Part shown: piece after piece, positions 49,431 through 64,000 of the stretch
How positions within the stretch are numbered: position 1 is the first letter of the stretch
Layout of the letters: each line of letters starts with the position of its first letter
Assembly (NCBI RefSeq): GCF_018873765.1
Contig: NC_057921.1
Span: 68,949,596-69,013,595 of the forward strand
DNA length: 64,000 bases
Source: Telopea speciosissima
Taxonomy: Eukaryota; Streptophyta; Magnoliopsida; Proteales; Proteaceae
Direction: 5' to 3'
Notes under the pieces: generated by a model
Told to the model about the DNA's origin: nothing
Databases searched by the model: none
Seen by the model: only the letters and a program-made list of their open reading frames with translations
Translations under genes and position numbers: made by a program

Positions 49431-50209
49431 GGCAGCTTCTCTTGGCATAGAACCTCGATCTGCTGCAGCACTGAGGAAGGTGAGGTGAGGGAAGAAGGTG
49501 AGGAGGAGGACCTTAGTCCTTCTCTTCCTCTTTAAAAAAAGGTAATTCCAATACTATCAAGGAGGGATAGTCGAGTCCGACAAATGGGTCCCATGAGGTG
49601 GGACCCATGTTTACATCTAACACTGAAACGACTTGGCATCAGACTTCATAGTAGTAGTCTCTCTATGTACACCTTGTATTACGTAACCAACTTCACGTAC
49701 CCAACCATGGTGAAGAGATCCAATACTTAACTCAAGCTAACTTCTGCAACAAATCCTTCTTCTTCTTGAAGCATTAATTTAACCCAATCAAGGTTCACAT
49801 TTTACACGCATACTTTGTAAAGCGTAATTGTAGGGGAATCTTTATATGGTCAACATATAAATCTACAAGTCACTCTCTTCATTCCTCCCTCCATCTAATA
49901 TTTGTTCTTGAAACCTCCATCACAAGAGAGATTATTTTCAGACATGTCTTATATTTAATAATCTATTGCTTACTTAACAAGAGAAAGCAAGAGAGAAGAA
50001 AATTGGGGATAAAACTGCTCATAGGTCACTCACATTCAGATTTCTTGTTGACCCACAAGATCTACGATGTGAGACCCATCAAGAAAAAGATGAAAACTAC
50101 CATGCTCTTCTCTTGTAATATATTCTATAACAAAACTTATATATACATCTAAATTATTTTCCATGGTTAGTCCTGGTGTAACTGTGCATGGATACAAATC
50201 CCGTAAAAG
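49431..50209. other. Upstream region of the MYB gene
   Basis: Promoter region by position (gene reads leftward). A TTTAAA box near 49531 on the minus strand could be a TATA element, but this is weak. The rest is AT-rich with no recognised motif. Confidence 0.35.
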
Positions 50210-51175
50210 TGTAGGAAAAATGTGAACCTAAAACGATGTAGAAAAAAAGAATGAAAATTACAAACAATAATCACACAATGCACCCATGGATTTATATGGT
50301 TCGACAAGATTGTCAACATTCAAGGTGAGATGAGATCTATTTCACTATCAATAGAGAATAGGCTTGGTTACAACTGCTTGTCCTCACACCTATCATATTA
50401 CAGAGAAAACTATCTTGCTATAAGTATATAGCAAAACCCTACATATGCACGTATTACTGAAATACCCTTGTAGCCCTAAAAAAATAATTCTTGGGGTCTA
50501 CCACCCTCGATCACCCCACATGGACCCATTAGCTCGCCGAGGCCTCAATAGCAAAAATAAACGCTCCAGGTGAGTTGATTCTTACTACAACCTTTTAATG
50601 GGCCTTTGAAATCAACCCACTAATGTAAGCAACAAAATACAAGACAATCTACCCTCTCTTTTGGTTGCTTAATGACTCTAGAAATTGTCTTAAAAAGAGC
50701 CCTCCTCGAGCAGTATCTGTTTTCTCACATATGTTATTGGTGAAGCTTGATCTCAATCTAGAAAGTGTTGTGGTGATTCTTCAGCGCATCATTTCGCCTT
50801 CGAAACACTCCAAAATGGCCAAAAAATACATATAACAGCGCTGACTCCTGTAGAGCTCACCAAGATCCTCGATTTAATATGTATTTTGACCTATGTTGAT
50901 TCAGGTCGACCTGGTGGGTCTCTAAGGGCAGTTTTGTACTTTTTGGATTAAAGTTTTCCTATATATTGTAGTTATCTCTTTGAGAGATGGAGTGTGAGGG
51001 TTTGTATTTACTTTGCAAAAATAGTGGATTCGTACTATCGCTCGATCGTAGATGTAGCTTCCTTCCTAGGGTTGAACTACGTAAAATCTTATCTTATGTG
51101 TGTGTCATTTCTCTTTCTTTTTGCATTTCTTTCTGCAAAATCTCCATTATGTTGCGTTGTTTTTCTTTTCTAACA
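50210..51175 (-). repeat. LTR-like repeat (putative solo LTR, - orientation)
   Basis: Read on the minus strand it begins TGTTAGAAAAG and ends TTTTTCCTACA, the same ends as 47052-47642, with collinear homology across much of its length. No flanking target duplication was found. The two repeats face each other around the MYB gene. Confidence 0.5.
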
Positions 51176-51950
51176 ACATACACATAGAATATACAATTAA
51201 TTAACTTCAGTAACCAGCTAAAGAGCTCTAGTGAAGATGGAGATCTCAGTACTTGTATTGATACTCAAAAAGACAAGGCTAAAAATAGTAAATACGATTT
51301 TGATGGGTGATGACATAAGATAACCGTATAAGACAATGAAATGGAAGGTGTTAGTTGGAATATAGAAATTGGGTATTTCTTATTGATGTCTCCAAATAGT
51401 GATATAGCAACGTTTTAAATACGTAGAGAGAGATATAAACTATAATAAAATAAATAAATAAAGAAAGAGAGGGAAATGGATAGATGGGAGAGGTTGAAAA
51501 TGAAGGTGTCTGTTGATTGATACAAATCAATCACCACATTGATGTGAAGATGAAGGGTGGCTTTTGCTTGGATGAATCGCAAGCCAAACAATGAAAGTAA
51601 TAATAAACAAATTAATCATTTTGAAAGGCTTTTTAATAAGAGAAGGAGCTTGGAAAAAAGGAGAAATGATTATAGTTAGCTTTAAGGAGGAGCAATGGAA
51701 TTTAAATTGGACCCTACCATTTTTTACGCTTTCAAATGTTAATGTTGGAAAAAAATTGAGTGTTTCCTTTTAAGCATGGTTGGTTGGGTTATTAAGTCAT
51801 AGATGTAATGTCTCTACCATACATTCTTTCCTTAAATATGGCCCTCATTATTCACATCTTTCTTCCTTTTCTCTCTTGTTTTCTTGTCTGTTTTAAAACT
51901 TTATTTAACCCTTATTCCCATGTAATAGTCTCTCTCTCTCTCTCTCTCTT

Positions 51951-51999
<49 letters not shown>

Positions 52000-53634
52000 G
52001 GGGAATCTGCATGTACATGAACGACTCACAGTTGTTCAGATACAATTCAATCTGTGAGAATATTCCATCTGAATGGCTATGAATCGTTCACATACGCTCA
52101 CACACATGAAGATTCACCGGACTCCTCACACTTGATGACTTGTTTTCTTCTTGCTCATAACTCAATAGACAAGTTGGCTAACAAAGATGCTGTCAATGGA
52201 CCTGCAAAACTTCCGGGTGGCTCATTCATAGATTGGATCTGAATTATCCCTGGACCCAGTTGGCCCATTTGAGTATTTTCCTGGATTTTACAAGATCTTT
52301 AAGCCCACAATGGTCCTGCTAGTTAGAGTCATGCCTAATGGGGCTGAAAGATTGGATTTGTGCTTGTAGACTTACACAATGGTCAGGTCAATTCGGAAGA
52401 AGGTAAATAATTAAAGGGAAAAAGAATGGTTATCTGTTGGATGGTTAGCATGGTTCCTGTGCTTAGATATAAACCAATGCTTATGTGTGTGAAAAGACTG
52501 TTCAGGCCCTAGTGAAATTGAAAATCACATCCAATCCAATGTCTCTGTGCGCAGAACTAACAATTTCCTCCCACTGTAGATTCTCAAATTCTATCTGGTC
52601 CTCTACTAAGAGGAAAAAGAAGAAGAAAAAAGAAAAATATGTAGTCTTTTGCTTCTAAGATAGTGCTTTTGTTGCTTCTTTGGAGGAGAGTCTGGAGTGG
52701 CCCCTCAATGTAAGACTGATAGTGCTTTTGTTGCTTCTTTGGAGGAGATTTCAGAGTCTATACTAAGTGATGCCATCGTGAATCCAATCTTAGAGTCTCC
52801 TTTCCTTTGCATTCTTGATTGGTAATCTCTTTCTTTAGCCTGCTACCTGCATGATTTTAATGCACATGTGAAGTATCCTGAAAAAGATGAGGATTTAGAT
52901 GGCCATTGTGTCTATACTTTTAGACGTAGTTATCACTTAAGATTTGCCCCGTACTACTTTTGTTCCAAGGAATGAGAAATTTAATTTGTAGTTTCATATC
53001 CCTTCCTTGGTGTTTTGACATATTCTCCTTTTGCGAATTGTTTCTTCTTCCCCTTCTTGATTTTGATGTATCATCCTTTGAAAGATTGTTCTTAATCTTC
53101 TGTTTGTGATTTTTCCTTGTCTAGCCTTTGTGGCTGATGTGTTATTTTTTTTTTTATTTTTTTTTTTTCATAATCTAAAACATCAGCAAAAAGAAAAATT
53201 AGCTTAAGCTTGAACCTAATATAATTCTTTGTGAAGTAAAAAATAATAATAATAATAATAATAAAAGGAAGAGAAAGACAAATTCATCAATTTTTATTTT
53301 CTTTTCTGTCCATATCTTGCCTTCCAAACATAGATTTATTGAAATAACTCATAGTAGATATTGAATTATTGGAAAATTTGTCCTCCTATGCACGTATCTC
53401 TGATTTCCCACATGCTAAGGCTGATGGAGAAGGGTGATGAAATTTATTTTTAATATCGAGTTTTTTCTTAACCCACGGTGATGGAGAAATTCCTTCATTA
53501 TCACCAAAAAAAAAGAGGAATTCCTTCATCAATTGCAACTATTGCATTTGAATGGGTGCCAACAAACAGTAAAAAGACATTTTAGACCTCCAATAAATTA
53601 AGGGAAGTAATTATGATGATAGAGATTCATGATG
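51176..53634. other. Intergenic, simple repeats
   Basis: Contains a (TC)n(GA)n self-complementary dinucleotide run at 51929-51996 and a 30-bp direct repeat (GATAGTGCTTTTGTTGC...) at 52659-52690 and 52718-52748. No gene seen. Confidence 0.4.
51929..51996. repeat. (TC)n-(GA)n hairpin-forming microsatellite
   Basis: A TC run turns into a GA run through TTCG, so the whole stretch can fold back on itself. Confidence 0.9.
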
Positions 53635-53825
53635 CGGATCCAGATCTCCTAAGGCCCAGCTGCCCGTAGCAGCCTGTGCGACGTGACAGGGTTGCGCGTG
53701 CAATGACCGCCTTACCCCCTGCTCCGGCAAGGTATTGGGCAGGAGGTAAGGCGGTCATTGCGTGTGTGGCCCTGTCACGACGCAGAGGCTGCTACGGGCA
53801 GCTGGGCCGTAGGAGATCTGGATCG
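53635..53825. mobile_element. Near-perfect palindromic foldback element (191 bp)
   Basis: Long arms CGGATCCAGATCTCC...CCCAGCTGCCCGTAGCAGCC and their inverse GGCTGCTACGGGCAGCTGGG...GGAGATCTGGATCG, with the core GCAATGACCGCCTTACC/GGTAAGGCGGTCATTGC. Flanks TTCATGATG and CTCCTGATG agree at seven of nine positions. Longest and most symmetric member of its family. Confidence 0.8.
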
Positions 53826-54516
53826 CTCCTGATGAACTCTTTCTCTTCGCTTGTTCGCGTGAAGAAAAACTTTTATTTATTTTTTAATGTAAGAGTCCAT
53901 TATTTTTTATGCAAAGTAAAAATTAATTAAGATGGATAGGGCCAGTAGGGGTGTCAACGGGCTGGACATGTTAAAACCCCAGCGCAGCCCTATGGGTCTT
54001 AAAGTTGGCCCAAACCAACCCAGCCCTGTAAGTGCCTAATAAAACCCTTGACCCAAGCCCAATTCTGCCAGAGATTACCCTAGCTTATCCCGGCCCTGAT
54101 TGAGCATGAAAAATAATAATAATAATAATAATAAAAAACTTATATCTTATCGATGAAAGGTGGTAATCTTTCATGTTTACTACATAAACTTATCTTATCG
54201 ATGAATGAAGAAGTTTAATTAGTCAATAAACATGTGGGCATGCTTCAGGTATTTAGTATTAAACCAATTAACTAAATAAACATCTCATTAATTATGATTC
54301 CATGTAGTAAGTGACATGGATTGTCCATCTGATCATAACTCAAGTCTTAATTTGTTGCAAAAACTGGACAAAACAGTCATAAGAAGGTATTCTATTTTCG
54401 GTTTTTATTTATATCTCCAGTTTAATCACCTATTTTAATTTTTAACAGCAAAAGAAAGTGTATCTGGTAAAATCAGGAGTTAGAAATGTCAGATTAGCAT
54501 TTAAGCAATGCTGTGC

Positions 54517-54631
54517 GGATTTAGATCCTCTACTGTCGAGCTGTCGTAGGGATAAGGCGGACATTACACGTAGCACCATGTCTAGACGGCACGATCCTGC
54601 TGGGCAGCTCGACAGTAGAGTATCCAAATTG
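54517..54631. mobile_element. Foldback family member, shortened (115 bp)
   Basis: Ends GGATTTAGATCCTCTACTGT and, inverted, ACAGTAGAGTATCCAAATTG. Flanks ATGCTGTGC (54508-54516) and ATGTTGTGC (54632-54640) agree at eight of nine bases. Confidence 0.75.
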
Positions 54632-55283
54632 ATGTTGTGCTTCAAGTTCTCAAGTAAAGGCATGGAAACATTGTTTTAATTTATTGATAACCACATGCCA
54701 TTGAATACTTTTTTATAAACAATTCGTTTCTCGTTCTAATTTTACCGGATTTCTGGGAGGAGAGAGATAGAAAGCAGAAGCTTTGCCAGCTTAACAGAGA
54801 GACGACGGCCACAGGATGATCGATGATATCCCCTCCCCAAATTTCGTTAATTCTTCCACCCCAATCGACAGAAATAGCGATTTTTGCAGGCTGGGAAAGG
54901 AGCCTGGACTGATCAGCAATCCATTACTAATAAATCGTCTAAATTTATAAGTGATCAGAGAGAGGATGGTTTTTATATCCTTTTTCCATTTTTCCCTTTT
55001 GGCGGTGGACAACAGATAGATATAAATTAAAGAAGATCACATAATAATTAATAAAAGTTAAAACGTACGTGCAAAGATGTCCGGATGAGCATTACTTTTT
55101 TCCTTTGCATGGTGCTTGCACGACACCTGTCCAATACTCAAATGGACAACTCATTCTGAAGTTCTCCCCTCATCTTCCTTATCAATTTTCTAATTTGGAT
55201 ATGGGTGTACGGTTTTCCAACAACTCATGACTGCATTAAGTCTCATACTTGGATCCAATATCCAATCAGATCAGACGTTCATT

Positions 55284-55452
55284 GGATCCAGATCCTCTCC
55301 TGTCGAGCTGCCCGATAGAACGGTAGTGTCAAGACACAGTAGCGGAAAATGACCGCTTTACCTCTGCTTAATCGTCTTGTCTGGGCAGGGATAAGGCGGT
55401 CATTGCATGCCTAGCCGTATCTGGGCAGTTCGGCAGTAGAGGATTCAAATTG
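55284..55452. mobile_element. Foldback family member present only in copy A (169 bp)
   Basis: Ends GGATCCAGATCCTCTCCTGT and GCAGTAGAGGATTCAAATTG; core GATAAGGCGGTCATTGCATG. Flanks ACGTTCATT (55275-55283) and ATATCCATT (55453-55461) correspond to the single ATGTCCATT in copy B (60746-60754), which lacks the element. Confidence 0.75.
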
Positions 55453-55474
55453 ATATCCATTCTTTAATCTTGCA

Positions 55475-55663
55475 ATCTAGATCTTCTATGACGCAGTTGC
55501 CCATCTTGCCTGGGCTATGCAAACACAGGGTTGCGTGCAAAGACCGCCTTACCCTCATTTGAACAAGATGCTCAGACAGGGGTAAGGTGGTCTTTACATG
55601 CGACCATATATTTGTGCAGCATAGGTTGGACGGACAGTTGCTCCTTAGAAGATCCAAATCCTC
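55475..55663. mobile_element. Foldback family member shared by both copies (A)
   Basis: Arms AGATCTTCTATGACGCAGTTG and, inverted, AGAAGATCCAAATC; core AAGACCGCCTTACC/GGTAAGGTGGTCTTTAC. Possible flanks AATCTTGCA and AATCTTGGC. The homologous copy is at 60768-60952, so insertion preceded the duplication. Confidence 0.65.
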
Positions 55664-55767
55664 AATCTTGGCATTGTGTAAATCTCATTCAATGTTACAA
55701 TGTTAGAGAATTGGACTATTAATGTGACCAGCCATAATACATGGTTAATTAATTGAAGGGACTCAAC

Positions 55768-55931
55768 GCCAATCGAGATCCTTTGCTGTTGCTTGCCTAT
55801 GCGGCTGTCATGCAGCCTCACGCAGGCAAGGGGCGTAGACCCCATCCAGGCATTGGGTAAGGCGATCATTTTACCCTTGCCTGTGTGAGGCTGCATGCGA
55901 TCACATAGACAGGTAGTAGAGGATCCAAATT
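55768..55931. mobile_element. Foldback family member shared by both copies (A, 164 bp)
   Basis: Flanks GGACTCAAC and GGACCCAAT (seven of nine). The interior inverted repeat GCAGCCTCACGCAGGCAAG/CTTGCCTGTGTGAGGCTGC differs from other members, although the outer GGATCC and AGTAGAGGATCC ends are kept. Same length as its partner at 61030-61193. Confidence 0.7.
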
Positions 55932-56438
55932 GGACCCAATGCTGCCATCAACGTACGTGCAGATGGGTATATGTGAACCACATGCCCTATTTTTATCATT
56001 TACAAGGAGATCAAGGAAGGGTATTTATGAAAACAAAAAACACCCTCTCAGATGTACGTTCACCTACACATACGTGTAGGTGATCCATTCTCTCCCACAC
56101 GACGGCCCAGAACCACAAATGCTGTGACGAGACACAATGGTTAAAAAGGAAGAAATCGGATCTCCAGAGTGAAGGAGACAGGTAGACAAGAAATTTGATT
56201 ATTTTATTGACATTAATTTCTTGAAAATAAAAGAAAATGAAAAAATAATATTATTTTATCTACATGAGAGGAAGGAATTAAAATAATAGAAAAAATATTT
56301 AAAACGGAATGTTCTGCATTGGACAGATTCCATTTCATACTCCCCCTGTACAAGGAAAGTGAATAGTAATAACTACTCTCCTCGTACGGTTCGGAAAAAT
56401 GCATGCATGGCTACTGTATTTGTCGTTTCGGTTCCTCT

Positions 56439-56839
56439 GCACGTACCAACAGGTGAGCATACTTGTGAGAGTCAATCACATTTTAATTTTGTTTTCATAA
56501 AAGCTCCTCCTCCCTTCATGGTCTTAATGCACGGTATTGGAACTAGTATCGGTGACCCACAAAATGGATATGATACTGATATGGTATCGGTTTGGATCGG
56601 ACAAAAATACCCTTGAAATTCTTTAAAAAATGATTTTTTTTACCATTTTACCCCTTATCCGTACCGTGTTACTAATACAGTATCAACATGGCATCGGCAT
56701 CAATGACTAACAAAACCAATACATATCATCCGATACGGACGATACGATACTGATACTTCGAACCATGCCTCCCCTTGTAAATGGCAAAAATAGGACAGGT
56801 GGTTGGCTCTCATATGTACGTTCACCTATTGGTACGTGC
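56439..56839. mobile_element. Nested foldback elements (copy A)
   Basis: The outer element has ends GCACGTACCAACAGGTGA and, inverted, TCACCTATTGGTACGTGC style arms. Inside it, at about 56517-56767, a second foldback starts CATGGTCTTAATGCACGGTA and ends with GATACTGATACTTCGAACCATG, with many GATACGGTAT/ATCGGTATC words between. The same nest is present in copy B. Confidence 0.6.
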
Positions 56840-57087
56840 GGATGATCCATTCTCATGTATTTGTATCTACACGCACGATCAAATTTTACAAAATCACTGG
56901 CGAAATATTGGATTGGATTCTTAATTTTGGCAACTCCAAAGAGATTGAGACGATTCATATCTTACAACCAGAACTAGAACCCTTCTTAATTCATAGAAAA
57001 AAAACATTATTATTATCTGTTATGATACTGAGATGACACAAATAAATACAGACCCGTTACGAAACTGCAACTACGCAAGAGAGATCG

Positions 57088-57651
57088 TTACGAGGGCAGC
57101 TGAGTTTCGATGGACGATTGTTCATCATCTCTTCCAAAGATAAGCTCATAAAAGAAAGCTAGCTTAGCAGTTAACCATGGCCAGAGAAACCAAACCCGAC
57201 CCCTAAGCTGCTTCAAGGGATTAATGGGTAAAAACAATAAAATGGGCAAAACCCAGAAGATAAACCCAACCTCTGCAGTCTTATCGAATATGAGAACGGA
57301 CCCAAGCATGAATAAGGTCTGGAATGCACAGAAAACACTGAAACGAGATAAGGCAAGCCTTGCCCATCGTGGAAGTAAACCATGCAAGAACTTCACTGCT
57401 GTGGAAGCAAAGACAGCCACAAGCATGGCAGATATGGAAAGGATAATGGTCACACCATGACCCCCATCCAACTCTCCTCCTCTACCTTGGTATTTGATAT
57501 CAATAAAACTTAATACGATTGTGAGAGCAAACCCAAACATGACATTGCTCTTCCAATCGATTTTAGTAGTACTATGGCTGTTTTGGCGTCTTCTCCAACG
57601 GCGAGAGCTATCAAACCTGAGTAACCATTTCTTGCTGTTGTTGTTAGCCAT
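57088..57651 (-). CDS. 187-aa four-pass membrane protein, paralogue A (unrecognised family)
   Basis: A single-exon frame from ATG 57651 to TAG 57088. The N-terminus (1-34) is basic with an Arg-rich patch (SSRRWRRRQ). Four hydrophobic segments follow at about 36-50, 67-91, 103-122 and 128-146. A Pro/Arg/Trp-rich stretch (NPLKQLRGRVWFLWPW) and a hydrophilic acidic C-terminus (GRDDEQSSIETQLPS) complete it. I do not recognise the family; the pattern fits a small plant-specific integral membrane protein. The start is supported by a TATA box about 50 bp upstream and by an identical start in paralogue B. Both copies are full-length with no stop, so purifying selection is plausible. 176 of 187 residues match B. 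Confidence 0.75.
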   Translation of the reverse strand: MANNNSKKWLLRFDSSRRWRRRQNSHSTTKIDWKSNVMFGFALTIVLSFIDIKYQGRGGELDGGHGVTIILSISAMLVAVFASTAVKFLHGLLPRWARLALSRFSVFCAFQTLFMLGSVLIFDKTAEVGFIFWVLPILLFLPINPLKQLRGRVWFLWPWLTAKLAFFYELIFGRDDEQSSIETQLPS

Positions 57652-57701
57652 TTTAATGGTATCACTGTTTCAGTGCAAGCTTGAGAACTAAACAGTCTAA
57701 A

Positions 57702-57707
57702 TTTATA
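57702..57707 (-). promoter_or_regulatory. TATA box of the paralogue A gene
   Basis: CACTATAAATTT on the minus strand, about 51 bp before the ATG. It implies a very short 5' UTR and is conserved exactly in paralogue B. Confidence 0.6.
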
Positions 57708-58258
57708 GTGAACTGGGGATCAATGCATGGAAAGTTGAGATGAGCCGCCACTGAAGATGATGGATTATTCACTTTCTTATTTCCCTATTGGTTGGGCGTG
57801 ACACATCTTTTCTATTTTCCCGCACTCATCCACTCACCTTTTTCTCTGTGGGTGAAGCAACGAGGTGATTTCCCATAAAGTTTAGAGAAAATGGGCCAAC
57901 TGAAGGACTCGCCATTGACCCACGCTAACAAGAGTTTGCAACTAGAAGATCAGAAAAATGTTTTTTTTTTTTTTTTTTTTTTTTTAAAAGGACAAATCTT
58001 GGGAGAAATTTTTAAACAAAGAGAAGGCAAGTATTCGGGGAAATTTAACCCAAAAAAAAGGGTCAAGTCTATAGGGAAATTTTTTCTGTTAGCTGTGGCT
58101 TCGCCATCTCCTTCTAGTGAGGAGTACTAGTACTATGGAAGTCCTCTTGGGTGTTCATACTCCTCACTGTATCATGTTGTCACTAAAATAAATAAGCCGG
58201 TTCAGGAATTGGACTTACTGTGAAAGATTTCATGCGTTCCATTCAAATGTAAAATAGA

Positions 58259-58431
58259 ATTCCAGAACCTCTACTGCCGAGCTGCCCGATAGCACCGTGC
58301 TGTCCAGACACGGTGCTGCGTGCAACGATCGCCTTACCCCCATTCGGGCAAGACGTTTAGGCAGGGATAAGGCGGACATTGTGTGCAGCACGATGCTGCC
58401 GGACAGCTCGGTAGTAAAGGATCCAAATTCA
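58259..58431. mobile_element. Foldback family member present only in copy A (173 bp, perfect 9-bp duplication)
   Basis: Ends ATTCCAGAACCTCTACTGCC and, inverted, GGTAGTAAAGGATCCAAATTCA; core ATAAGGCGGACATTG. Both flanks are TAAAATAGA (58250-58258 and 58432-58440). Copy B has a single TAAAATAGA (63393-63401) running straight into AGGGT-like sequence: an empty site. Confidence 0.9.
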
Positions 58432-58690
58432 TAAAATAGAGGGTGCGAGTGGTCATGTACAGGGTTGGAAACACCCGGGTTTACAATTCAGGCCTTGGGG
58501 AAAAACCCAGGAGCCTGAAACCCTGTGATCGAAGCACATTGTTTTAAACCAGCTGAGCAAACCCACAGGAGGTGAAAACATGCCTCCCTTATTCAATCAT
58601 AAGGGATACTTCTTTTGAAAGTTTGTTTAAAATAAATTAAGTTGGACTAAATTTTTCTTCACCCACAATCAAAGGGGAATCCCTTGATTG

Positions 58691-59410
58691 AGGGGTTTGG
58701 ATGGTGTGCAAAGGGTATCGGAGAGTGGGATTATTATCGACTACGTATAATAAAGGGTGGGGTAATAATGAACCTAGAAAAGTTGATGTTTCACAAAGGA
58801 AAACTTTTGCCTATGTTACTTTGAAAAATGTTATGGGCAACAGAACAATGCTTTGGTCATGAAATCCCTACACCAGTGTAGGGGTGAAGGAGAACATGCA
58901 CAGGGACATCAGCAAGGATGAGATTTTTTATTAAGAGAGGGTTGGATGGTAATTTTGCACACTCCTGTATTTGGCCTAGGAACCATACGAGTCAAAAAGT
59001 GTTCTTTTTCCCAAATTTTATTCTTCATTTGAAGGAAATGAAACCATTTGTTTACACCTACCTGTTGAATGGAGGGTCCTAAGCTTGGTCTAGGGTTTGA
59101 GTCTCCCTATATCACATGCCATTATGAAGCCACCCCCATCTAATAAGAAAAAGATCCTCTCCAACTCCAGCCCCTTACCAACCTACCCATCCAATGGTGT
59201 TGAAATGCAAGTTCAAATCCTCCTAACCGTTAAATGGGTAGTTAGAGAGGAGTTGGACACAGATTTTTATCTTTTCAAATGTGAGTGCACCTCACTTAAG
59301 CATCCAACTATAGAAACATGGAAAATGAAGTCTTTTTATCCTCTCAAATATTGAGTGAACGGTTGAATGCTTAAATGAGGTGCAAAAGGACTTTAGAGGA
59401 TAAAAATCCG
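58691..59410. other. Spacer between the duplication copies
   Basis: No gene recognised. It also follows copy A's distal segment and may belong to the repeating unit; the matching sequence for copy B would lie right of the window. Confidence 0.4.
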
Positions 59411-60767
59411 TTGAACGCCCAGCACAGCGCTAAGGGTCTTAAAGTTGGCCCAAACCCAGCCCAGCCTTGTAAGGGCCTAACAAAACCCTTGACCCAAGCC
59501 CAATTCTGCCCGAGATTACCCTAGCCTAACCCTTCCCTGATTGAACTTGATTGAGTGTGAATAAAAAAAATAATAATAATAAAAAATTTATGTTATCAAT
59601 GAAAGGTGGTAATCTTTCGTGTTTATTACTTAATAAAAAAAATTAATACAGTGCAAAGTTATAAGAATGCTGTTGTTGAACTGGGGGGGCTTGGCCCAAT
59701 CCTGCTTCCTTGGATGGCTGCTTGCAACGTGCAAATATTGTTAGGCCAGCCCATCATAATCAAAGCTATATATAGTTAATAGTAACAATAATGATATAGT
59801 TTGTTATTTATCCAAACATAACAAGGCACCAACTATCCTCTTAAAATTAAAATTAAAGATGTACTTGAAAATAAATTTTTATGGGATAATTAAGTGAAAT
59901 CACATTCACGGTGAGAAATAGAAATTTTTTTTTTTTAATAAATTCAAGAATTTGAGGGGATTTCTAATAAAGGATTAAATCGTGATTTGCACAACCCATC
60001 TTCCCCAACGGCCCAACCCCCCCTCTCTTCGTTGGCCGGTGTATCCTCTGTTCACTCTAGATTTTCTCTTTCACACGTTTCTCTCGTTTTTTTTTTTTTT
60101 TTTTTTTTTTGTTTTACTGAAAACCCTCTTCACTATATTTCTCTCTCGTTTCCGATTAGTGGTTAGGTTGTTTTAGTATTATTATTTCAAAGTCGTCAAT
60201 AAAAATGAAAACCTCGCGTTGTGATCAGAGCGAACCCACCAAACTTCGTTAATTCTTCCTCCCCAGTCGACTGAAACAGGCCGCGGCTTTCGCAGCTTCT
60301 TCGCCGTTGGCTTACCCACGGCCATCTAACCTGGATGAGCATTTCTTGTGGTTCTTAAGAAATAGCGAGTTTTGCAGGCTGGGAAAGGAGCCTGGACTGA
60401 TCAGCAATCCATTACTCATAAATCGTCTAAATTTATAAGTTTACATGGACTAGATGCCGTACGTGATCAGAGAGGATGGTTTTTAATTTTTTATATCCTT
60501 TTTCCATTTTTCCGATTTGGCGGCGGGCAACATTGATATATATAAATTAAAGAAGATCTCATAATAATTAATAAAAGTTAAAACGATGTCCGGATGAACA
60601 TTACTTTTTTCCTTTGTATGGTGCTAGAACGACACCTGTCCAATATTCAAATGGACAACTCATTCTGAAGTTCTTATGGGTGTACGGCTTTCCAGCAACT
60701 GATGACTGCAGTAAATCTCATACTTGGATCCTTCAATCGGATCAAATGTCCATTCTTCAATCTTGCA

Positions 60768-60952
60768 GTCCAGATCTTCTATGGCACAGCTGTCCATCCA
60801 ACTTGGGCTGTATAGGCACTGGGTTGCATGCAAAGACCGTCTTACTTCCATTTGAACAAGATGCTCGAGCAGGAGTAAAGAGGATTTTACGGCCCTATGT
60901 CTGTGTAGCACAGGCAAAACAGTTACCTGCACCGTAGAGAATCCAAATGCTC
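60768..60952. mobile_element. Foldback family member shared by both copies (B)
   Basis: Homologue of 55475-55663, starting at AGATCTTCTATGGCACAGCTG. It is more decayed on the right arm, where a deletion removes some flanking sequence relative to copy A. Confidence 0.6.
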
Positions 60953-61029
60953 AATGTTATAATGCTAGAGAATTGAACTATTAATGTGATCAGCCAAAAT
61001 ACATGGTTAATTAATTAAAAGGACCCAAC

Positions 61030-61193
61030 GTCAATCAAAATCCTTTGTTGTCGTTTGCCTGTGCGGCTATCGTGCAGCCTCACACAGGCAAGGGGGGTAA
61101 ACCCCATCCAAGCAATGGGCAGGACGATCATTTTGCCCTTGCCTGTGTGAGGCCGCATGTGGCCACACAGACAGATAGTAGAGGATCCAAATT
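61030..61193. mobile_element. Foldback family member shared by both copies (B, 164 bp)
   Basis: Homologue of 55768-55931. Flanks GGACCCAAC (61021-61029) and GGACCCAAT (61194-61202) agree at eight of nine bases. Confidence 0.7.
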
Positions 61194-61731
61194 GGACCCA
61201 ATGCTACCATCATTGTACGTGCAAAAAGGTATATGTGAGAGGTAACCACATGTTTATAAGAAGATTCACGAGGGGTATTTATGAAAACGAAAAACACATA
61301 TGGTTGCCTCTCAAATGTATGTTCACCTACACATACGTGTAGGTTATGTGTAGGTGATCCATTCTCTCCCACACGACGGCCCAGAACCACAAATGGTGTG
61401 ACGAGACACAATGCTTAACAAGGAAGAAATCGGATCTCCAGAGTGACGGAGACAGAAAGACAAGAAATTTGATTATTTTATTGACATTACTTTCTAGGAA
61501 ATAAAAAAAACATGAAAAAACAATATTATTTTATCTACATGCTGAGAGGAAGGAATTAAAATAATAGAAAAAATATTTAAAACGGAATGTTCTGCATTGG
61601 ACAAATTCCATTTCATATTCCCCCTGTACAAGGAAAGTGAATAGTAATTACTACTCTCCTCGTACGGGGAGGTGATCTAGACTCTTCGGATAAATGCATG
61701 CATGGCCACTGTATTTGGAGTTTGGTTCCTC

Positions 61732-62105
61732 TACACGTACCAACAGGTGAACATTAATGTGAGAGCCAATCATATTTTAATTTTGTTTTCATAAAAACTT
61801 CTCATTCCCTCATGGTTTTAGTGCAAGGTATTAGAACTGGTATCGGCGACCCACAAAATCGATACGATATCGATATAGTATCAGATTGGATCGGTTGTAT
61901 TAGACAAAAATACCCTTGAAATTCCTTAAAAAAGGGTTTTTTTTTGACCATTTTACCCCTTGTCCGTACCGTGCTACCGATACAGTATCAACATGGTATC
62001 GATATCGGTGACTAACAAAACAAATACGTATCGCCCGATATGAACGATACGATACTGATACAGGTGGTTGACTCTCATATGTACGTTCACCTATTGGTAC
62101 GTGTA
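61732..62105. mobile_element. Nested foldback elements (copy B)
   Basis: Same nest as 56439-56839 with outer arms TACACGTACCAACAGGTGA and its inverse. The inner element has lost its right end: about 36 bases, including the TTCGAACCATG arm, are missing compared with copy A. Confidence 0.6.
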
Positions 62106-62358
62106 GATGATCCATTCTCATGTATTTGTATCTACACGCACGGTCCAATTTTACAAAATCACTAGCGAAATATTGGATTGGATTCTTAATTTTGGCAACT
62201 CCAAAGAGATTGAGACGATTCATAATTTCATATCTTACAACCAGAACTAGAACCCTTCTTAATTCATGGAAAAACACATTATTATTCTCTGTTATTATAC
62301 TGAAATGACACAAATAAAGACCAACCGTTACGGAACTGCAACTACGCAAGAGGGATCG

Positions 62359-62922
62359 TTACGAGGGCAGCTGAGTTTCGATGGACGATTGTTCATCATC
62401 TCTTCCAAAGATAAGCTCATAAAAGAAAGCTAGCTTAGCAGTTAACCATGGCCAGAGAAACCTAACCCGAACCCTAAGCTGCTTCAAAGGATTAATGGGT
62501 AAAAACAATAAAATGGGCAAAACCCAGAAGATAAACCCAACCTGTGCAGTCTTGTCGAATATGAGAACGGATCCAAGCATGAATAAGGTCTGGAATGCAC
62601 AGAAAACACTGAAACGAGATAAGGCAAGCCTTGCCCACCGTGGAAGTAAACCATGCAAGAACTTCACTGCTGTGGAAGCAAAGACAGCCACAAGCATGGC
62701 AGATATGGAAAGGATAATGGTCACACCATGACTCCCAAACAGCTCTCCTCCTCTACCTTGGTATTTGATATCAATAAAACTTAATACGATTGTGAGAGCA
62801 AATCCAAACATGACATTGCTCTTCCAATCAAATTTAGTAGTAGTATGGTTGCTTTGGTGTGTTCTCCAACGGCGAGAGCTATCAAACCTGAGTAACCATT
62901 TCTTGCTGTTGTTGTTAGCCAT
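62359..62922 (-). CDS. 187-aa four-pass membrane protein, paralogue B (unrecognised family)
   Basis: Single exon, same length and start as paralogue A, lying in the second duplication copy. Substitutions relative to A fall at residues 21, 22, 24, 25, 27, 31, 62, 64, 127, 151 and 154; the four hydrophobic segments are unchanged. The Arg patch is reduced (SSRRWRTHQ). The basic N-terminus and long C-terminal tail again suggest an integral membrane protein with both ends outside the bilayer. Function is unknown; no catalytic motif is visible. The TATA box lies at 62973-62978. Confidence 0.75.
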   Translation of the reverse strand: MANNNSKKWLLRFDSSRRWRTHQSNHTTTKFDWKSNVMFGFALTIVLSFIDIKYQGRGGELFGSHGVTIILSISAMLVAVFASTAVKFLHGLLPRWARLALSRFSVFCAFQTLFMLGSVLIFDKTAQVGFIFWVLPILLFLPINPLKQLRVRVRFLWPWLTAKLAFFYELIFGRDDEQSSIETQLPS

Positions 62923-62972
62923 TTTAATGGTATCACTGTTTCAGTGCCAGCTTGAGAACTAAACAGTCTAAA

Positions 62973-62978
62973 TTTATA
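62973..62978 (-). promoter_or_regulatory. TATA box of the paralogue B gene
   Basis: CACTATAAATTT on the minus strand, at the same distance from the ATG as in paralogue A. Confidence 0.6.
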
Positions 62979-63468
62979 GTGAACTGGGGATCAATGCATG
63001 GAAAGTTGAGATGAGCCGCCACTGAAGATGATGGATTATTCACTTTCTTATTTCCCTATTGGTTCGGCGTGACACATCTTTTCTATTTTCCCCCACTCAT
63101 CCACTCACCTTTCTCTCTGTGGGTGCAGCAACGAGGTGATTTCCCATAAAGTTTAGAGAAAATGGGCCAACTGAAGGACTCGCCATTGGCCCACGTTAAC
63201 AAGAGTTTGCAACTAGAAGATCAGAAAATGTTTTTTTTTTTAAAAAGGACAAATCTTGGGAGAAATTATTAAACAAAGAGTTGGCAAGTCTTCGGAGTCT
63301 TTGGGGAAATTGTTTCTGTTATAGTCACGTAAATATAAGCCAGTTCAGGACTTGGACTTACCGTGTAAGATTTCGTGCGTTCCAATCAAATGTAAAATAG
63401 AGGGTACTATTGCAGTATTGGACAACTCTCATAAGGAAGAAAACATAGGGGGGGAGGGGGGGGGGGGG

Positions 63469-63764
63469 CTGAAATGATCATTCCATCCTCTGATCGAATA
63501 CACTGTTCGGGTTGGGGTCCACGTCCTTTTATTAGAGGCACTAGGGAACCGTACCGGACAAGGGAATCGCATGTGATAAAAATTCCCTCACCACCACCAC
63601 CACCACCACCCGTATGGGGGGGGGGGGCTGAAATGATCATTCCATCCTCTGATCGAATACACTGTTCGGGTTGGGGTCCACGTCCTTTTATTAGAGGCAC
63701 TAGGGAACCGTACCGGACAAGGGAATCGCATGTGATAAAAATTCCCTCACCACCACCCGTATTA
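63469..63764. repeat. Two-unit tandem repeat (period 159) bordered by G runs
   Basis: A unit starting CTGAAATGATCATTCCATCC and ending in CACCACCACC repeats occupies 63469-63627 and recurs at 63628-63764 without visible change. Each unit follows a long G run (63448-63468 and 63616-63627). Present in copy B only. Confidence 0.85.
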
Positions 63765-64000
63765 TTTAGGGTTGAAAACAACCCCTTTTTTTTTGGCTAA
63801 CGAGAAGACTCCGCCCACCCTGTGTAACGCTTCATTCATGGAGACTTGAACCTAAGACCCCGTGACCGAAGCACATTATCCTAAACCAGCCGTGCAAACC
63901 CACAGGAGGTGACCCTAGTTCAATTGTATGGGACATTTCTCTTGAAAGTTTGTTTAAAATAATTTAAGTTGGACTAAATTTTTCTTTACCCATAGTCAAA

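Follow-up and report, generated by a model that had tools for sequence, protein, structure and literature searches.

A Mutator-like foldback MITE very probably entered one of two tandem blocks after their duplication

Results

Tandem blocks with closely similar reading frames

The window (the whole stretch of DNA analyzed, the final 64 kb of contig C6 in a genome of 823 Mb) contains two blocks in tandem, A and B, each with a reading frame on the minus strand. A foldback element lies upstream of the block A reading frame, whose start codon is about 600 bp away. The features are given below by their position in the window; A' and B' stand for a second pair of these blocks elsewhere on the same contig.

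About 54-59 kb: block A, in tandem with block B
57088-57651, minus strand: reading frame of block A, 193 codons, 187 amino acids from the first ATG
58249-58257: left target site duplication GTAAAATAG in the family register, identical on both sides in A'
58258-58430, plus strand: foldback MITE of 173 bp in the family register, with termini AATTCCAGAACC...GGATCCAAATTC
58431-58439: ATAAAATAG, the target site duplication on the right, which differs from GTAAAATAG at one base
About 59.4-64 kb: block B, in tandem with block A
62359-62922, minus strand: reading frame of block B, closely similar to that of block A, 193 codons, 187 amino acids from the first ATG
63392-63400: empty site in block B, with one copy of the target GTAAAATAG
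C6:56.898 and 56.903 Mb: A' and B', the second pair, about 12 Mb from A/B

When the genome was searched with the 209-bp left flank of the element, only four places were returned, namely A, B, A' and B', with B and B' matching just the last 80 bases of the flank. Neither the block A nor the block B reading frame matched a Pfam family at E <= 0.001, and no Rfam match reached the gathering score in positions 50000-64000 of the window. Judged by eye, both 187-amino-acid products are hydrophobic; the frame is also open in A', where it has a longer tail, and in B'. The left part of block A (53637-55931) is crowded with family copies or pieces, located at 53637-53824, 54546-54630, 55284-55452, 55474-55660 and 55816-55931. 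For a comparison of density, 26 loci obtained via another repeat gave 2 family matches in 80.5 kb.

Borders and fold of the element

The original prediction placed a 173-bp palindrome between two perfect copies of TAAAATAGA, and both copies are indeed found, at 58250-58258 and 58432-58440. The 173 bp form a strong foldback hairpin (z = -5.1), and none of 200 shuffled sequences folded as well under DNA parameters. Copy A alone favors the predicted register, in which nine of nine target bases match as against eight of nine in the family register. However, the family members whose duplications are clean set the ends of the element at GGATCCAGATCC...CAAATT(G/C), and A' shows GTAAAATAG on either side. 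We therefore rejected the register with TAAAATAGA in favor of GTAAAATAG and set the borders at 58258-58430, so that the predicted size is kept and the predicted position proves to be one base too far right.

Compared with A', the element in A has a 16-bp gap between the direct repeats CAACACCG and CAGCACGG. In the family alignment this gap falls near consensus positions 127-144, and by eye 14 of the 39 rows lack either 16 bp (seven rows, including A) or 18 bp (seven rows). These gaps probably reflect recurrent slippage and give no sign of separate insertions.

The family in the genome

A genome search with the element returned at least 98 matches (40 scored among 1665 candidates). An 18-base end piece, allowing up to 2 mismatches, occurred 3597 times, compared to 30 times for the reversed control. 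At two ends per copy this gives a family of about 1,800 copies, which is a floor because ends decay. The consensus of 39 aligned copies is 189 bp long, begins with GGATCCAGATCC, ends with GGATCCAAATTG and pairs with itself along almost its full length (-174.7 kcal/mol, RNA parameters). Thirteen copies, the first of them truncated, form a satellite-like array at C2:63019853-63022227, where they follow one another head to tail, separated by short spacers that resemble each other.

Flanking sequences were compared for 33 of the 39 aligned copies, six having been dropped for incomplete ends; A and A', both among the 33, represent one insertion. The nine bases on either side were identical at a frequency of 0.650, whereas the shuffled null had a mean of 0.266 and a maximum of 0.354 (500 shuffles), and 8 or 9 of the 9 bases agreed in 17 of the 33 copies. 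Frames of 10 or 11 bases scored lower; 8-base frames within the nine scored equally (0.65-0.66). This genome search and flank table upheld the 9-bp duplications in the copies with complete ends.

The element is short (173 bp, consensus 189 bp), too small to encode a transposase and present in high copy number. It has terminal inverted repeats, despite the outer 7 bases at its two ends, which show no inverted-repeat pairing, and the inverted repeats make up most of its length and form a strong hairpin. A target duplication of about 9 bp is seen in the family flanks, in A' and at the second insertion described below; PMC4486113 describes a 9-base target duplication as typical of Mutator-like elements. 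The duplication had been called Mutator-type from the start, an assignment that the 33 copies with complete ends, of 39 aligned, support with no transposase tied to the family. The original interpretation seems mostly right: the element appears to be a non-coding MITE of foldback form and Mutator-like type, and elements of this kind are well known.

No autonomous partner was found among the MULE domains and family ends listed. MULE domains are abundant in the genome (150 scored among 827 candidates). On contig C1, none of the 17 MULE domains scored there came, by eye, closer than 10 kb to any of the 84 exact-match ends in the list for that contig (the whole list covers 100 of the 3597 places). 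A pair of facing ends 3.6 kb apart, considered as an autonomous element, proved to be two separate MITEs.

The empty site in block B

As predicted, block B holds one TAAAATAGA, at 63393-63401. The single target site of B is common to B'. The site had also been called collinear with copy A; this holds on the left, where A and B align to the end of TAAAATAGA, but not on the right, where they share GGGT and then diverge, homology clearly resuming at 58511 in A and 63848 in B. Between GGGT and 63848, B holds another dispersed repeat and sequence unmatched in A. This repeat (63462-63585, about 124 bp in a typical match) starts about 60 bp to the right of the empty site and has 1043 candidates in the genome, of which 40 were scored. 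A 142-bp stretch around it is perfectly repeated 159 bp further on (63457-63757, second copy at 63616-63757), and B' seems to carry this stretch once.

Since the right side shares 4 bp, the local A/B alignment is in itself weak proof of a pre-insertion site. The view of B as such a site, put forward in the original prediction, draws its strength instead from B', from the dating and from a second empty site with homology on both sides. The features of this second insertion, and of an older family copy beside it, are as follows.

55275-55283: target duplication to the left of the second insertion, ACGTTCATT in A and ATGTCCATT in A'
55284-55452, plus strand: the second family copy, carried by A and A' but not by B and B'
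55453-55461: target duplication to the right of the second insertion, ATATCCATT in A and ATGTCCATT in A'
55474-55660, plus strand: family copy common to A, A', B and B', the B copy at 60769-60948
60746-60754: single ATGTCCATT in B, the empty site of the second insertion, with two-sided homology

In A' the second insertion is flanked on both sides by ATGTCCATT, which is single in B and in B'. Both target copies have decayed in A, and the adjoining flank differs between A and A' at 8 of 96 sites (8.3%).

Order of events and dating

The first element is present in A' and absent from B'. Near its site, A and A' differ by about 3% and B and B' by 4-5%, whereas A or A' differs from B or B' by 11-16%; therefore, the A/B tandem duplication is older than the A/A' split. 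In the main block (55453-58091) the distances are 6.6% for A-A', 8.0% for B-B' and 8.4-9.3% for the cross pairs. Supporting sites there stand at 50 : 21 : 12, the A-A'/B-B' grouping being the commonest but much weaker than near the site. With distances this close and sites so divided, gene conversion among the block copies is likely within the main block.

The insertion, at 58258-58430, was dated from the elements of A and A' together with the consensus, using 172 element sites and 233 flank sites only. Taking the A/A' split as the unit, the insertion has an age of 1.64 (95% interval 1.19-2.41) and the tandem duplication an age of 4.05 (2.60-7.09); the order in which the insertion follows the tandem duplication was reversed in 5 of 5000 bootstraps. 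These values assume a steady rate within the element, and any differences that the source copy already carried would merely push the insertion estimate too far back. The A and A' elements have 8 non-consensus states in common, of which, among 37 other copies, one occurs in none and three occur in a single copy. The two elements nevertheless differ by 14.5%, against 12.7% for the nearest unrelated copy, and several copies are no farther from A than A' is. The excess rate described below explains this high divergence, although conversion could also do so.

Taken together, the presence of the element in A and A', its absence from B and B', and the dating place its insertion between the tandem duplication that made A and B and the later split of A from A', and make a deletion scar in B unlikely. 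The original prediction offered two options for the timing around one duplication; there are in fact two splits, that of A from B and that of A from A' with B from B', and the insertion falls between them.

Faster decay of the element

Of 172 element sites, 24 differ between A and A' (20 transitions, 4 transversions), and of 1959 flanking sites, 78 do (41 transitions, 37 transversions). Transversions are alike in the two (Fisher p = 0.57), whereas transitions are raised in the element (p = 1.6e-8) to about 5.5 times the flank level, an uncorrected ratio of which the higher G+C content of the element must explain part. The second insertion shows 32 transitions to 4 transversions between A and A', compared to 4 to 4 in its 96-base flank. 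Over about 230 bases with the older shared copy, the counts are 31 to 6 for A-A' and 30 to 8 for B-B'. We considered gene conversion between elements as the source of the A-A' divergence and ranked it second, given that transitions are raised and transversions are not and that two other copies behave alike.

Across the 39 copies, transitions affected 14% of CG, 11% of CHG, 6% of CHH and 2% of A/T sites. This order of contexts, CG over CHG over CHH, would fit cytosine methylation. Relative to the consensus, copy A has 5 CHG and 9 CHH transitions and none of its 24 CG sites changed, while copy A' has 3 CG, 4 CHG and 7 CHH transitions. Simple CG methylation is thus disfavored in copy A, because no change falls at CG there. 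We lean, by a little, towards the view that each MITE copy of this family acts as a local hot spot of mutation. If so, A-A' and B-B' would offer a matched clock of methylation-driven decay upstream of a gene.

Discussion

Our results make it very probable that a trans-mobilized, Mutator-like MITE entered copy A between the tandem duplication and the A/A' split, and that B was never occupied. A transposase from another locus would have mobilized the non-autonomous foldback element in trans, bringing it into GTAAAATAG about 600 bp upstream of the copy A reading frame. A staggered cut followed by repair presumably produced the 9-bp duplication found there. The insertion would be later than the A/B tandem duplication and earlier than the parting of A and A' (C6:56.9 Mb), with copy B retaining the target as it was, close beside another repeat. 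Since then, transitions have built up in the element at several times the rate seen in its flanks, which is what a methylated transposon would be expected to show.

Hairpins between direct repeats are capable of exact loss, and an element ancestral to A and B could have disappeared from B through precise excision, or through slippage across the hairpin between the 9-bp repeats, leaving an identical single target. Such a history requires two events and not one, it conflicts with the dating in all but the 5 of 5000 bootstraps, and the second element splits A/A' from B/B' in the same way; we regard it as highly improbable. The dating, B' and the second empty site speak likewise against the deletion scar in B that had been named as grounds for refuting the prediction. 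We also consider it very unlikely that B is an unrelated junction, where a rearrangement replaced everything to the right of the target, element included. Collinearity does stop past GGGT, with a dispersed repeat at most about 60 bp on, yet homology spans the full target and GGGT, and nothing would make a random break fall just there. In addition, B' agrees with B, and the dating does not depend on the junction.

A different doubt concerns the second pair, which might be the other haplotype, misplaced 12 Mb off in the assembly, so that the second split would be allelic. The window stands at the end of contig C6 and A and A' differ by just 3-5% in the element flanks, as this would have it, but the window matches C6:56.88-56.92 Mb only from about 53978 on (matches over 150 bp, E <= 1e-20), and a haplotype should extend further. 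We hold this to be rather unlikely; it is in any case compatible with the insertion into copy A after the tandem duplication, as it would leave the sequence of insertion and splits unchanged.

The insertion is real and well preserved. Its kind is ordinary, and its framing is unusually good: the order of events follows, with no outgroup, from a pair of insertions, the matching empty sites and the two splits of the block. The matched copies show a hairpin transposon changing faster than its surroundings, so that ages taken from element divergence alone would be biased. Moreover, the two near-alike reading frames differ upstream by the presence of the element, so that a regulatory effect could be tested simply.

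In the literature searched, by text and in part, the sequence family carries no name; it may stand in a repeat library. Its closest likeness there is MuTAnT of Medicago truncatula, for which PMC4486113 likewise describes spanning long inverted repeats, a hairpin, a 9-nt target duplication, frequent insertion near genes and the use of paralogous empty sites as proof of movement. MuTAnT was first described at 292 bp, and its family has TA microsatellite targets and a known autonomous partner, unlike the present family, which measures 173-189 bp, uses mixed 9-bp targets and has no partner found. The array at C2:63.02 Mb resembles the coral CMITE arrays, where full-length MITEs stand in tandem with similar spacers, but the CMITEs belong to another superfamily, being of piggyBac type with TTAA targets (PMC2872659). 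Plant Mutator-like MITEs are also short, non-coding and high in copy number (PMC12550479 and PMC12595863), and PMC12550479 assigns 41.5% of plant MITEs to the Mutator superfamily.
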